From assembly GCA_002733645.1 (NCBI GenBank), contig NVWL01000024.1, positions 1 through 39,861 of the forward strand: a stretch of DNA of 39,861 bases, written 5' to 3'. Positions within the stretch are counted from its first letter, which is position 1, and each line of letters starts with the position of its first letter. Below, piece by piece: positions 312-6,606 of the stretch. The notes below the pieces were generated by a model, which was not told the origin of the DNA, searched no databases, and saw nothing but the letters and a program-made list of their open reading frames with translations. The translations under genes were made by a program, and so were the position numbers. This DNA comes from Oceanobacter sp. GTDB lineage: Bacteria; Pseudomonadota; Gammaproteobacteria; Pseudomonadales; Oceanobacteraceae.

Positions 312-1523
312 ATGCGTCGTGTAGTAGTCACAGGGTTAGGAATTGTCAGTTGTTTAGGTAACGACAAAGAAGCCGTTCTGAAGTCTCTTCAGGAGCAAAA
401 GTCCGGTATTGGCTATGTTCCAGAGTATGAAGAACTCGGTTTCCGAAGCCATATTGCAGGCCGTCCTGATATTGACCTTGATGAGCATATTGATCGCAAG
501 ATCAAACGTTTCATGGGTCCCTCTGCGGCATACTCCTACCTCTCTCTACAACAAGCAATTAAAGATGCTGGTTTAACTGATGACCTCGTCAGCAACCCAC
601 GCACTGGTTTGATTGCCGGCTCTGGCGGCGCAAGCAGCAGTGACATTGTTGAAGCCGTCGATATTTTACGTGAGAAAGGCATTCGCCGTGTCGGCCCTTA
701 CCGGGTAACTCGCAGCATGGGCAGCACAGTTTCGGCGAACCTCGCCACCCCATTTGCAATCAAGGGTGTGAACTACTCGTTAACATCCGCCTGCGCCACA
801 AGCTCACATTGTATTGGTAATGCCATGGAGCTAATCCAATGGGGCAAACAAGATATTATGTTTGCCGGCGGCGGCGAAGAAGAACACTGGTCGTTAACCA
901 TGCAATTCGACGCCATGGGCGCGTTATCGACTAAATACAACGACACCCCGGCCAATGCCTCTCGTGCCTATGATGCAAACCGCGATGGTTTTGTCATCGC
1001 CGGTGGCGGTGGTGTTATTGTGCTTGAAGAATACGAACACGCCGTCGCCCGAGGCGCGCACATCTATGCTGAAATCATTGGCTACAGTGCGACTTCAGAC
1101 GGTGTAGACATGGTTGCTCCATCAGGAGAAGGGGCTGAGCGCTGTATGCGCGATGCCCTCACTATGGCAGGTTCACCAACCATCGATTATTTGAATACCC
1201 ACGGTACCAGCACCCCTGCTGGCGATATATGCGAGCTTAAGGCAGTGTCACGCGCCTTTGATGGCAAGATGCCACCACTCAGCTCGACCAAGTCGCTAAC
1301 AGGGCACTCGCTCGGAGCCGCGGGCGTTCAGGAAGCCATTTACTGCTTGTTAATGCAGCAACATGGTTTTATCACCGGCAGCGCCAATATTACTGAGCGC
1401 GACCCGGACGCCGCAGATATGCCGATTGTGACGGAAAACCGCGACGCCAACCTTGAGACTGTTATGTCGAATAGCTTTGGCTTCGGTGGCACCAATGCCA
1501 CTCTGATATTCAGACGCGTATAG
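312..1523 (+). CDS. fabB: 3-oxoacyl-[acyl-carrier-protein] synthase I
   Basis: This cytoplasmic enzyme elongates fatty acids by decarboxylative condensation of malonyl-ACP with acyl-ACP, and in the FabB class it also carries unsaturated chains forward. The 403-residue product matches the usual FabB length of about 406. It carries the thiolase-fold triad: Cys161 in SACATS, His297 in [11 protein letters not shown] and His332 in [14 protein letters not shown]. The C-terminal [11 protein letters not shown] loop is intact. The ATG at 312 is chosen because it begins the typical [10 protein letters not shown] start; an in-frame ATG at 279 would add 11 residues with no family counterpart. The next gene downstream is a large carboxylase able to supply the malonyl unit, which suggests functional linkage. 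The assignment is very secure. Confidence 0.97.
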
Positions 1524-1698
1524 CCGTAACATAAACGGATCACTGACGAGCGCACTTAATAAACGCTTGGGGTTTAACCCCCAAAAGATAAGAAAAATTC
1601 CGGTGGCATACCGGACAACTGCACAAACAAAGGCCAATTCATCCAGTGACATCGGATAATGTTTAACGGCCCGAGTGAGTACCAATGGAATCATACGC
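1524..1698. other. fabB-carboxylase intergenic region with two hairpins
   Basis: Two inverted repeats occur here: TTGGGG-TTTAAC-CCCCAA at 1567-1584 and TCCGGT-GGCAT-ACCGGA at 1599-1615. Neither is followed by a T run on the plus strand, so they do not look like ordinary intrinsic terminators. They could be mRNA processing or operator structures between two genes that may be cotranscribed. No gene is seen. Confidence 0.4.
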
Positions 1699-4600
1699 AT
1701 GACAAAACAAGAATTACCAAATCATACGGATCCGTTGTTTCAGATTGCTGAAAAGCTTTCTGCCGACTTCTCATTTTTTCCGGAATACGAAGACAACGCA
1801 GTCGACCACAAAGTAAAAGGCCTGATCAGCCCAGAGCAATGCGGTATTGAGCTAGACCGCCTGCGTAAATTAAATATCGATGACTACATCGACCACGTTG
1901 TATCCCCCAGTGAAAGTACTCAACGTGCCTCTGCGAAAACCGTGGTTCAACACCTCGTTGTACGCATCATTACTGAAGTCGATGACGGCCCACTGTATTG
2001 CGCAGAAGCTGACCTCGATTTTGGCGGCCATATTCGCCGTGTTGGTTTTATCTGTCAAAACCGTGAACACTCGAATGGTGCTTGGGGGCCTGCTCACCAC
2101 AACCGTGCGGCGCAGCAAGCGCGTCATTACTCTAGCCGCGCGATGCCAATTATTACCTTTATCGACACCCCAGGAGCAGACGCTGGCGAGCAAGCTAACT
2201 CGCAAAATCAAGCGCACTCCATCAGCCATTTAATCACTGAAATGGCCAATAACGATGTACCGACTCTAGGTATTATTTGGGGGGCGGGTTATTCCGGTGG
2301 TGCTATTCCCCTAGCCTCCACCAATATTCTGCTTTCCGTGCGCGATGGTATTTTTAATACCATTCAGCCTCAAGGCTTAGCCAGCATTGCTCGTAAGTAC
2401 AATTTATCTTGGCAGGAATGTGCTAAGTACGTGGGAGTATCCGGGTATCAACTGCGTGAGTCGGGTGTGATTGATGGCATCGTTGATTACGCGCCGACGG
2501 ATGCGGATGAAAAACGTGTCAACCTGCATCGTGCGATTACTTCGGGTATCGAATCAATCGAAGAAGGCGCAAAAGACTTCACACGTAAAAACAAATATTT
2601 AATGGATCACTACCAGCGCAGTATTGAGCGCTTTTTAAATCCATCGGATAAACTGTTAACACTACAAAAAGACGCCAACTTCTTTCTGGCGAACAACCCG
2701 ACTGAACACATCAACATTTTCGGTCTGTGTTACCGCTACACCCGCTACTTAACGCTGCGTCGCCGTATTCATTCCACCACGGTGGAAAACTATGGCCGCC
2801 TAGCTGAAAAAGAAGTCCCGACAGGACAGCTTGATCAGCGCGTACAACGCGAACAAAACAAGAAGTTCCAGAACTGGCTCCAAGCCCCTGAAAAGATTGT
2901 CTACGACGACAATCTACAAAAATTCTGGAAAAACTTCTGGAGTAAATACGAAGAGCGTGGTGAAAGCCGCAACACCTTCGCACGTTTATTTTTTGGCGAG
3001 CCAAAAAACAACTACCTTAAAGCCAAGCAAGAGCTTTGCTTTAACTTAGGTTTGTATTTATTCAATCGTTGGAAGTCAGACGCGACGGTTAACTTCCAAG
3101 GTTTGCTTAACTACCTAGACGATTATCGCCAGAGCCGTTTTTTGTTACGCTCGACGGATATCTTAGATTCATCAGCGGTTGTCGACTTTATTGAAGACAA
3201 CCCGCACCCATTGGCAATTTATATTCGTGAGCAACTGCCCCACGAAACTCGTCAAGAGTTAAATAAACAACGCCACGGTGAAAACACCAAAGGGGCATTG
3301 CGTCAGTCGCTTGCGACCGCGCTGAATACCATTCTCTCGGACAACTTGTTACCTGCAGATATTCGCGCTGAATTAAAACTGTCTACCCGTACCGATGCAC
3401 TGTGCAATGACGAAATGACACAAGCGACGGAAGCCAATCGCCGCATTATTGAAGAAGCATTAGCACCCTACATTCAGTTTCGCCAAGAGAATATTCAAAA
3501 CCCATCGCATCCTGACATCACTATCCTTGATGCCATTTTGCACGATGAGTTACGTGAAGAATTTACTCACGTCTGTCAAAACATGTTGGTATTTGGTGGT
3601 CTTTACGACAACTTCATTCACAACCTAGCCAGTGTGGCGAAGGAAGCGAATGAAACTCGTGCACTGTCTCGCGAATCCGTTAAAACGTTATTAGATAAAT
3701 CATTATCAGAAGCAACCGACGGTGAAAGCTACACCATGAAAGATCTTGAATCTTTCAACTATTGGCTGAGCTACTTCGTTAAGAGCTCTCAACGTGGCGA
3801 TTTTTTGAAGTCGGTTGAAGAGTGGAAAAAACTTGCCTTCCCACGACTGTCTGAATCGTTATTCGTCGTTATAACCTTTATCTTCGAAAAACTGTTATCA
3901 GAGTATTACAACGCAGAGCAAGCGGGAAAAAATTACAACGGTCGTATTAATCCGGTATCCATTGGTCGTCGTAAAGACTTTTGGAACCGCCTAACGATGG
4001 GGTATCACGACCTTCAAATTCAAGAAGTACTTGATGATGCCAAGCGTGCCAAACGTGCGTCGCCATCTACCATCATTGATGCCTTCTTTACGGATTTTGA
4101 AGAGCTGTATCCTAACCTGATGTCCGCCGACCCTGTGTCTTTTCCTGGGTTCCGCTCTTCGATTGAAAGTGCGCTAAAACGCAATATTCAACCGTGTGGC
4201 GTAGTAACAGGTTTGGCAACCATTACCGTCGGAGGGCGTACACAGCGTGTTGGGGCGTTAATTTCTAATCTTGATTTCCAAGCCGGCGCTTTTGATATGG
4301 CCAGCGCTGAGAAATTTTGTAAATTATTAGTAGAATGTGCGCGCAATCAATTACCCGTCGTATGTTTCGTATCATCCGGGGGTATGCAAACGAAAGAAGG
4401 GGCAGCGGCACTTTTCTCTATGTCAGTCGTTAACGACCGCATTACCCGCTTTGTTCGTGATAACGATTTACCCCTTGTGGTATTTGGATTTGGGGATTGT
4501 ACCGGTGGCGCGCAAGCGAGTTTCGTGACTCACCCTCTTGCACAAACCTATTATTTCTCAGGTACCAACATGCCATTTGCTGGCCAAATTGTTGTACCAA

Positions 4601-6606
4601 GCTACTTACCAAGCACGTGTACGTTATCGAATTACCTATCGGTCTCATCAGAATCAATGGATGGCCTAGTGGCTCATCCTTTTTACACTGAAATGGATGA
4701 TCGCTTACGTGCGATTGATCCAGACGTACCGGTTGCACGCCACACAATTAACGACGTACTTGAGCGTGTACTTGAAGGGTATGTTACCGCAGAGCGCATG
4801 GCTCCCGCGACCGCCGAAGAAGCAGAGCAACAAAAGAAATACGGTAAAATCGATAAAATCATGATTCATGCTCGTGGCTGTACTGCCGTGAAGCTGATTC
4901 GTAAAGCACAAGAAAACGACATTAAAGTGGTATTAATCCAGTCAGACCCTGACATGGAATCTGTGCCCGTAGATATGCTTGGGCCAAAAGACCGCGTGGT
5001 GTGTATCGGTGGTAATACCCCGGATGAAAGCTACCTGAATGCTAAATCTGTATTACGTATTGCCCATCATGAAGGCGTTGATGCACTGCACCCGGGCATT
5101 GGCTTCTTATCAGAGAGCAGTCAGTTTGCAGCGCTGTGTGGTAATCACGATATTAATTTTGTTGGCCCCCCGGTGTCATCCATGGAAACCATGGGCAACA
5201 AATCCAACGCGATTAATACCGCGATGCAAGTGAATGTACCTGTTGTTCCGGGTTCACACGGTATTTTGACCAGCTCCGCGAATGCTGCCAGCGTTGCGGA
5301 CGAAATTGGCTACCCGGTTCTGCTTAAAGCCGTTCACGGTGGTGGCGGAAAAGGCATCCAAGTGGTTGAGTCTGCGGACCGTATTCACGCCCTCTTCCAT
5401 CAGATTTCTACCGAAGCAAAAGCGGCCTTTGGTAATGGTGATGTGTACCTCGAAAAATACGTTACCTCATTACGCCATATTGAAGTTCAAGTGCTACGTG
5501 ATTCTCACGGCAACACCAAAATTCTAGGGCTACGTGACTGTTCGGTGCAGCGTAACAACCAGAAAATTTTTGAAGAATCTGGTTCTACTATGCTTCCAAA
5601 AGAACTGGAAGACAGTGCTTACGATTTTGCCGAAAAATTATCAGATGCTGTGGAATACGTGGGCGCTGGTACGGTTGAATTTATTTTCGATCTAGATCAT
5701 ATGTCGATCTACTTCATGGAAATGAATACCCGACTTCAGGTTGAACACCCAGTGACTGAGTTAGTGTCTGGTATTGATATTGTTTCTACGCAGTTCAAAA
5801 TTGCGGAAGGCGGCAATATTCAAGACCTAACCCCGGAACACAAAGGCTACGCAATTGAAGTCCGAATCAATGCGGAAAAAGCCGTATTAAAAGGTGACAA
5901 CGTAGAGTTTGTACCAACCCCAGGAACCATTCGCGAATGCACATTACCTAAATACGATCACATTGAATTAATTTCAATGGCCGCCAGTGGCAAACAAGTC
6001 TCACCTTTCTACGACAGCATGGTCGCACAGGTTATTTGTTACGGTGAAAACCGTGAAGACACCATCGCCAAACTGCGTAAATACTTAGACGAAGTAAAAA
6101 TCACCGGCGTATGCACAAACATTCCGCTGCTAAAACGTGTATTGGATGACTCGGTATTTAATGATGGCGTGTACGATACGACTTACCTACCGAAATTCCT
6201 TGATCGTATTAATGTCAGCGACTTGATTAAAGACATCGAAGACGCTGCAGATATGCTAGCCGATGCCGTTGATGCCTCTCAGCTTAAAATCGAAGGATCA
6301 GATGAACTGAAAGTATTGTCGCCATCGACCTGTATTTTCTACGGTTCATCGTCTCCAAGCGAACCTGCCTTTGCTAAAGAAGGTGACATCATCAGCGTTG
6401 ATCAAACTCTGTGTTTGATGGAAGCCATGAAGATGTTTACGCCTTTAAGCTTGAAGCAGTTTAATCGCGCAGGCACAGAGCTGTACCCAGCGAAGCAGAA
6501 GTTCAAAGTCACTCGTATTTTGAACTCAGATGGCCAACAGGTAAATCAAGGCGATTTATTGTTTGTGGTAAAACCAGTTGCGGTTAAATCAGCCTCTGGT
6601 GCTTAG
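1699..6606 (+). CDS. Single-chain acetyl/acyl-CoA carboxylase (CT-BC-BCCP fusion)
   Basis: This is a biotin-dependent carboxylase with all catalytic parts in one 1635-residue chain. Residues about 100-300 resemble the AccA-type (alpha) carboxyltransferase, with IDTPGADAGE near 155 and the glycine-rich oxyanion segment GAGYSGGAIPL near 195. Residues about 830-1000 resemble the AccD-type (beta) half, with SSGGMQTKEG near 892 and GDCTGGAQASF near 933. Biotin carboxylase starts near 1048, with HPGIGFLSES near 1131, the ATP-grasp loop GGGGKGIQ near 1214 and MNTRLQVEHPVTE near 1342. The biotinyl domain has EAMKM with the acceptor lysine at 1578. About 500 residues between the two CT halves match no domain I know. 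The beta part shows no AccD-type four-cysteine zinc finger. The ATG at 1699 is preferred because TGGAA lies 8 bases upstream; an in-frame GTG at 1675 has no ribosome site. The acyl-CoA substrate is not known. Acetyl-CoA is suggested by the upstream fabB. Confidence 0.88.
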   Translation: MTKQELPNHTDPLFQIAEKLSADFSFFPEYEDNAVDHKVKGLISPEQCGIELDRLRKLNIDDYIDHVVSPSESTQRASAKTVVQHLVVRIITEVDDGPLYCAEADLDFGGHIRRVGFICQNREHSNGAWGPAHHNRAAQQARHYSSRAMPIITFIDTPGADAGEQANSQNQAHSISHLITEMANNDVPTLGIIWGAGYSGGAIPLASTNILLSVRDGIFNTIQPQGLASIARKYNLSWQECAKYVGVSGYQLRESGVIDGIVDYAPTDADEKRVNLHRAITSGIESIEEGAKDFTRKNKYLMDHYQRSIERFLNPSDKLLTLQKDANFFLANNPTEHINIFGLCYRYTRYLTLRRRIHSTTVENYGRLAEKEVPTGQLDQRVQREQNKKFQNWLQAPEKIVYDDNLQKFWKNFWSKYEERGESRNTFARLFFGEPKNNYLKAKQELCFNLGLYLFNRWKSDATVNFQGLLNYLDDYRQSRFLLRSTDILDSSAVVDFIEDNPHPLAIYIREQLPHETRQELNKQRHGENTKGALRQSLATALNTILSDNLLPADIRAELKLSTRTDALCNDEMTQATEANRRIIEEALAPYIQFRQENIQNPSHPDITILDAILHDELREEFTHVCQNMLVFGGLYDNFIHNLASVAKEANETRALSRESVKTLLDKSLSEATDGESYTMKDLESFNYWLSYFVKSSQRGDFLKSVEEWKKLAFPRLSESLFVVITFIFEKLLSEYYNAEQAGKNYNGRINPVSIGRRKDFWNRLTMGYHDLQIQEVLDDAKRAKRASPSTIIDAFFTDFEELYPNLMSADPVSFPGFRSSIESALKRNIQPCGVVTGLATITVGGRTQRVGALISNLDFQAGAFDMASAEKFCKLLVECARNQLPVVCFVSSGGMQTKEGAAALFSMSVVNDRITRFVRDNDLPLVVFGFGDCTGGAQASFVTHPLAQTYYFSGTNMPFAGQIVVPSYLPSTCTLSNYLSVSSESMDGLVAHPFYTEMDDRLRAIDPDVPVARHTINDVLERVLEGYVTAERMAPATAEEAEQQKKYGKIDKIMIHARGCTAVKLIRKAQENDIKVVLIQSDPDMESVPVDMLGPKDRVVCIGGNTPDESYLNAKSVLRIAHHEGVDALHPGIGFLSESSQFAALCGNHDINFVGPPVSSMETMGNKSNAINTAMQVNVPVVPGSHGILTSSANAASVADEIGYPVLLKAVHGGGGKGIQVVESADRIHALFHQISTEAKAAFGNGDVYLEKYVTSLRHIEVQVLRDSHGNTKILGLRDCSVQRNNQKIFEESGSTMLPKELEDSAYDFAEKLSDAVEYVGAGTVEFIFDLDHMSIYFMEMNTRLQVEHPVTELVSGIDIVSTQFKIAEGGNIQDLTPEHKGYAIEVRINAEKAVLKGDNVEFVPTPGTIRECTLPKYDHIELISMAASGKQVSPFYDSMVAQVICYGENREDTIAKLRKYLDEVKITGVCTNIPLLKRVLDDSVFNDGVYDTTYLPKFLDRINVSDLIKDIEDAADMLADAVDASQLKIEGSDELKVLSPSTCIFYGSSSPSEPAFAKEGDIISVDQTLCLMEAMKMFTPLSLKQFNRAGTELYPAKQKFKVTRILNSDGQQVNQGDLLFVVKPVAVKSASGA

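Follow-up and report, generated by a model that had tools for sequence, protein, structure and literature searches.

The gene at positions 1699-6606 (forward strand) of the window (the whole stretch of Oceanobacter sp. DNA that was analysed, 39,861 nucleotides) encodes a one-chain acetyl-CoA carboxylase (ACC) of the AccADCB/AccS type, 1635 amino acids in length, as identified by Pfam, NCBIfam, a PDB sequence match and Foldseek. It is almost certainly the housekeeping ACC of this bacterium and a homologue of AccS from Shewanella oneidensis. Its activity and its substrate, acetyl-CoA, are predicted from homology. By the mechanism generally known for biotin carboxylases, the biotin on Lys1578 would be carboxylated by the biotin carboxylase (BC) domain with consumption of ATP and bicarbonate, the biotin carboxyl carrier (BCCP) domain would then move to the active site built of the AccA-like and the AccD-like carboxyltransferase (CT) halves, and the carboxyl group would be transferred there to acetyl-CoA, resulting in malonyl-CoA for fatty-acid synthesis. 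Judging by the title of PDB entry 9kkm (see below) the protein may be dimeric, and which chains contribute the halves of a given CT site can be assigned only presumptively.

Domain organisation of the fused protein

Translation from the ATG at 1699 gives 1635 residues, while an alternative GTG start at 1675 would give a frame of 1643 residues (1675-6606). The frame is kept among the relatives (57 relatives aligned with the window protein, 58 rows in total), therefore a chance open frame was rejected. Certain sequences occur in the alignment under two identifiers (L033/L043, L028/L047 and L038/L048), thus the row counts given here are not counts of independent genomes.

All domains are encoded on the forward strand. 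The AccA-like CT half (residues 113-288; positions 2035-2562) carries GYSGGA at residues 197-202 and was recognised by Pfam ACCA (residues 127-288, 1.4e-26), by Carboxyl_trans and by alignment to standalone AccA (row L083, which is in a wrong frame, excepted). It is followed by a linker (residues 301-790; 2599-4068) that is mostly helix in the structural model and for which no Pfam family was found at E 0.1 or better over residues 300-791. The AccD-like CT half (residues about 799-1020; 4093-4758), with SSGGMQTKEG at residues 892-901 and without a zinc ribbon, was delimited by NCBIfam, HMMs and Carboxyl_trans. The BC domain (residues 1051-1500; 4849-6198; Pfam, NCBIfam and PDB matches) consists of Biotin_carb_N (1051-1162), CPSase_L_D2 (1168-1375) and Biotin_carb_C (1387-1498), and the BCCP domain (about residues 1541-1625; 6319-6573; Pfam and NCBIfam) matches Biotin_lipoyl at 1551-1623 and holds the putative biotinyl Lys1578 within MEAMKM (codon 6430-6432). 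The original prediction, which had read an AccA-like block, an AccD-like block, a biotin carboxylase and an EAMKM biotin site in one 1635-residue chain, is borne out by these Pfam and NCBIfam results. The two CT halves do not belong to the accA and accD equivalogs of the heteromeric enzyme by the curated cut-offs: NCBIfam accA matches residues 133-275 (2.8e-23) with 82.8 bits, well under the cut-off of 319.3, and NCBIfam accD matches residues 799-944 (3e-10) with 39.9-42.1 bits, well under 317.45.

The alpha motif GYSGGA is present in at least 45 and the beta motif SGGMQTKEG in at least 33 of the 58 aligned fused rows. In a 30-row alignment the G, S, G, G and A of the alpha motif and the S, second G, M, Q, T, E and G of the beta motif are invariant, and the first G of the beta-motif pair is A in L071. 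Of the 58 rows, 57 have the biotin lysine, the exception being L029, a relative with a shorter frame that ends before the site. No row holds the two CxxC motifs of the AccD zinc ribbon (0/58); a single CxxC occurs in three rows, at residue 122 or close to the N-terminus, in either case well away from the beta half. Five standalone AccD proteins that were compared show both CxxC pairs, an illustration and not a test, as their frames were picked by that very pattern. The loss of the zinc ribbon thus appears, from the aligned sequences, to be a feature of the family and not special to the window protein. The divergence of the AccD-like half and its missing zinc ribbon speak against an ACC, though the ribbon is missing from all 58 fused rows.

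Order of the carboxyltransferase halves

The eukaryotic-type multidomain ACC has the order BC-BCCP-CT, with the CT as beta then alpha. By Pfam, the window protein does not follow this order. Positions 294-391 of the Carboxyl_trans profile match residues 113-210, and positions 36-146 match residues 823-938 (the latter piece scoring 21.8 bits, slightly below the 22.3-bit cut-off), that is, the halves are swapped. Home-built HMMs, made from five standalone AccA and five standalone AccD proteins of the same order as the window genome, agree: among the matches listed (7 of the 58 fused rows), the AccA model finds the first half with 60-70 bits and the AccD model the second half with 15-22 bits, and matches to the wrong half occur only at E 0.3 or worse. 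These independent checks confirm the alpha-then-beta order, and together Pfam, NCBIfam, the HMMs and Carboxyl_trans give A-D-C-B on one chain. The CT-first arrangement with alpha before beta, which had been predicted, is therefore not the ordinary one by Pfam Carboxyl_trans, and it does differ from the carboxylase classes that the prediction had named.

Homology to AccS of Shewanella oneidensis

The window protein is homologous over its full length to a solved S. oneidensis enzyme. The best PDB match by phmmer is 9kkm_A (E = 0, 1917.9 bits, with residues 10-478 and 602-1627 aligned), the "Acetyl-CoA carboxylase multifunctional enzyme AccADCB" of 1517 amino acids, to which 9w4a is identical in sequence; the next PDB sequence match is a biotin carboxylase (2.9e-104). 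The title of 9kkm (released 2025-11-19) describes a cryo-EM structure of the acetyl-CoA carboxyltransferase holoenzyme dimer of S. oneidensis, mutant E1238A, and a literature search for the structure code 9KKM found no paper. An AlphaFold model of residues 4-1046, built from a 30-row alignment (mean pLDDT 81.3, pTM 0.73), has the same CT-linker-CT fold: Foldseek ranked 9kkm_A first (E 2.3e-81, TM 0.75 by query, rmsd 6.0, 48% identity over 1027 columns), followed by AccA and AccD chains with 1.3e-10 at best. Profile searches and structure prediction hence concur on the CT halves, the former by the swapped order and the latter by the match to 9kkm.

According to the available part of PMC4793157 (2016), AccS (SO_0840, 1517 amino acids, "acetyl-CoA carboxylase multifunctional enzyme") replaces the AccABCD homologues, which were not found in S. 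oneidensis, and an additional accB homologue exists. As far as the accessible text of PMC11602165 (2024) goes, accS is functional in vivo in S. oneidensis, where the growth defect of a mutant of the activator AccR was cured by accS as well as by accA, accD and accBC of Escherichia coli; accS and the LysR gene accR are arranged divergently, and the order of AccS differs from the eukaryotic one. In the portion of PMC9803151 available, "accADCB" is a mere list of genes.

The original prediction had proposed a distinct carboxylase family that possibly supplies malonyl-CoA. The supply of malonyl-CoA for fatty-acid synthesis is well supported, with no other carboxyltransferase gene found and fabB next door, whereas the claim of a distinct family fell, as a characterised enzyme with the same architecture exists (PDB 9kkm and, as far as their available parts show, PMC4793157 and PMC11602165). 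That the protein represents an undescribed family with a new domain order is thus scarcely credible: while the order does depart from the classes named in the prediction, it is shared by S. oneidensis AccS/AccADCB, which already appeared in print in 2016 and the structure of which has been solved, and the proposal was rejected. The window protein is a further member of the AccS/AccADCB family, the architecture of which is already described. The additions made here are modest: a longer linker form, a fabB neighbour, the missing zinc ribbon and a deep-branching second copy in two genomes.

Role in the genome and distribution

Searches with the accA, accD and Carboxyl_trans profiles found no other gene at E 0.001 or better in the genome of the window (a draft of 86 contigs, 99.44% complete), so that neither a standalone accA nor a standalone accD was found there, as expected where the fused enzyme is the sole ACC; with an 86-contig draft the absence of a gene is not proof. 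As these searches gave no second gene of the accA, accD or carboxyltransferase kind, the window gene is very probably the ACC of its genome. Further biotin carboxylase and biotin-carrier stretches occur elsewhere in this genome, and no separate accB was found over the cut-off.

These additional stretches, together with the existence of single-chain bacterial carboxylases of broad acyl-CoA range (LCC, in the part of PMC6491548 available), would fit a carboxylase that acts on another acyl-CoA (propionyl-, long-chain or other) while malonyl-CoA is made elsewhere. We consider this very improbable: the searches gave no further accA, accD or Carboxyl_trans gene that could provide malonyl-CoA, the CT part is nearest to AccA and AccD chains after 9kkm, and the great majority of the genomes with the fusion are devoid of standard accA and accD over the cut-off (44/47, see below). 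A substrate other than acetyl-CoA was rejected on the ground that no other CT gene was found, and an acetyl-CoA carboxylase remains the preferred assignment.

Among named rows, those of Thalassolituus maritimus and its relatives are nearest to the window protein (89% identity). The CT-linker-CT part of the fused gene is present in 47 of 390 genomes of the order to which the window belongs, the best matches of the holders being 1e-90 or better and those of all other genomes 4e-18 or weaker; 41 holders have it in a frame of more than 1500 residues and six in shorter frames. Neither standalone accA nor accD is found over the cut-off in 44 of the 47 holders, therefore the fused enzyme normally stands in for the four-subunit one. 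It is not always the sole ACC of its holders, because in three of them (G006, G049 and G265) standard accA and accD are found over the cut-off as well. Weaker accD-profile matches elsewhere were seen in some holders, e.g. in G366 (67.1 bits, a 370-residue frame) and G149 (19.7 bits, an 86-residue frame). Among 20 hand-picked genomes without the fusion, accA and accD were each over the cut-off in 19; the accA miss is a contig-edge fragment in G012 (318.6 of 319.3 bits) and the accD miss is in G107. The 68th genome of the accA/accD survey, G124, matched none of the three. With residues 599-1038 as the query, the fused gene was found in 6 of 369 genomes sampled from the class and in 6 of 398 sampled from the phylum; the window's genome is included in both counts, and all holders in both samples fall in the same class.

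Two holders, G265 (locus L092) and G255 (L066), belong to families in which the other tested genomes have standard accA and accD (4/4 in f6 and 1/1 in f47). G265 holds both sets, while G255, an assembly with 6% contamination, holds the fused gene only; a horizontal gain of the fused gene in these two is possible. A partial one-chain ACC match (55% of the query covered, 55.4% identity) was also seen on a conjugative plasmid of Enterobacter asburiae (NZ_KY863418.1, 143036-145777).

Genomic neighbourhood

Directly upstream of the carboxylase gene and in the same direction lies fabB (312-1523, forward strand), which encodes beta-ketoacyl-ACP synthase I (NF005935, 686.5 bits with a cut-off of 630); uvrB is located downstream on the opposite strand. 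Among the loci of the window's family, 28 of 32 have a strong match to the FabB of the window in the fetched flank; L032 and L035, two of the loci without one, are cut off by a contig end, and L037 and L050 are true misses. In the other 27 loci, a strong ketoacyl synthase (KAS) match lies one gene away in two (L071 and L072), a weak one is found in L061, and there is no KAS/FabB match in the fetched flank of the remaining 24. LysR-type genes were seen in two tested neighbours of other relatives, which is not a systematic survey: in L066 such a gene points away from the carboxylase gene, the divergent arrangement described for Shewanella accR, and in L092 it is convergent and situated at the far end.

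In G006 (L090:9495-17407) and G049 (L091:6020-13709) a FabA-like, a KAS and a FabV-like gene are followed by AccADCB in a row, just before which an acyltransferase gene is found in the opposite, divergent direction. These are the genomes of L071 (G006) and L072 (G049), both of which keep standard accA and accD, and the fused proteins L071 and L072 form the deepest branch, with long branches, of the midpoint-rooted tree. In G006 the trans-2-enoyl reductase is over the FabV cut-off (494 of 400 bits), FabA passes one cut-off (216.3 of 124) but not a second (203.3 of 238.15), and the KAS is nearest to FabB, under its cut-off (595.7 of 630). Among the papers listed by a literature search, none describes such a FabA-KAS-FabV-AccADCB row by its title. 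The row in G006 and G049 might suggest that a one-chain AccADCB does not only replace AccABCD but may also belong to a self-contained set for fatty-acid synthesis, a speculative reading to which we give little credit. If true, special lipids could be made by this set as a second pathway, or the set could escape inhibitors that act on the main pathway; the pairing of fabB with accADCB in the window's family would then be either a remnant of this association or a parallel instance of it.

Long and short forms of the linker

Within the linker, residues 479-601 (123 residues; 3133-3501, forward strand) fall between the two blocks aligned with 9kkm and are nearly absent in the short, Shewanella-like form. 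The insert measures 100-135 residues in 44 of the 58 rows and 6-19 residues in the other 14, and the longer form is absent among the solved chains searched in the PDB. A match of the insert alone to DUF7941 (E 0.026, 14.5 of 27 bits) was dismissed as chance. In the tree (57 rows, insert columns left out, midpoint-rooted, with L071, L072 and L077 on long branches) the long label needs three changes, and with backbone supports of 86-88 gain versus loss of the insert is not settled.

The insert may add a function (assembly, FabB/ACP docking or regulation) that the Shewanella enzyme lacks, which would be compatible with an ACC; we regard this as conceivable but doubtful. Its presence in the majority of the rows, its modelling as helices (block pLDDT mostly 74-87, two blocks 67 and 64) and the adjoining fabB in most loci of the window's family are in favour of such a function. 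However, the insert is poorly conserved relative to most of the protein: in 10 diverse long rows the mean share of the commonest residue is 0.43 in the insert, with only the joint 1021-1050 lower (0.41), compared with 0.57-0.62 in the other linker parts and 0.66-0.76 in the catalytic parts. Furthermore, 13 long-form loci outside the window's family (L051-L062 and L077) have no strong FabB match nearby, L061 having a weak one only, therefore the insert and the fabB linkage do not go together.

Comparison with known carboxylases

The heteromeric bacterial ACC (AccA, AccB, AccC and AccD) has the same four functional parts, with AccA-like and AccD-like CT halves, but in the window enzyme these are fused on one chain with a long helical linker and without the AccD zinc ribbon. 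Eukaryotic and actinobacterial multidomain ACCs have the order BC-BCCP-CT, and single-chain bacterial carboxylases also have BC first. The latter likewise carry BC, BCCP and CT on one chain, and the CT domain of one of them (PDB code: 5fif) matches the model partly (E 2.7e-07, TM 0.17 by query). Eukaryotic and actinobacterial ACCs (SACE_4237, in the available part of PMC6491548) similarly have all parts on one chain, whereas in the window protein the CT comes first, with alpha before beta.

The family shows that an ACC is possible with swapped CT halves, with a helical linker between them and ahead of the biotin carboxylase. That a one-chain ACC can be unlike the eukaryotic one is a point already made for Shewanella in the accessible text of PMC11602165; what the window contributes is that its own genome and those of many relatives very probably have no ACC other than an enzyme of this kind. 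The window protein shares with S. oneidensis AccS the A-D-C-B order on one chain, a near end-to-end alignment, the predicted CT fold and the absence of standard accA and accD. It differs from AccS in its length (1635 amino acids with the 123-residue insert, versus 1517), in sequence (48% identity to 9kkm_A over the modelled part), in the lack of a separate accB over the cut-off, a homologue of which S. oneidensis has, and in its neighbour, fabB lying upstream of the window gene whereas accS of S. oneidensis is divergent from accR.
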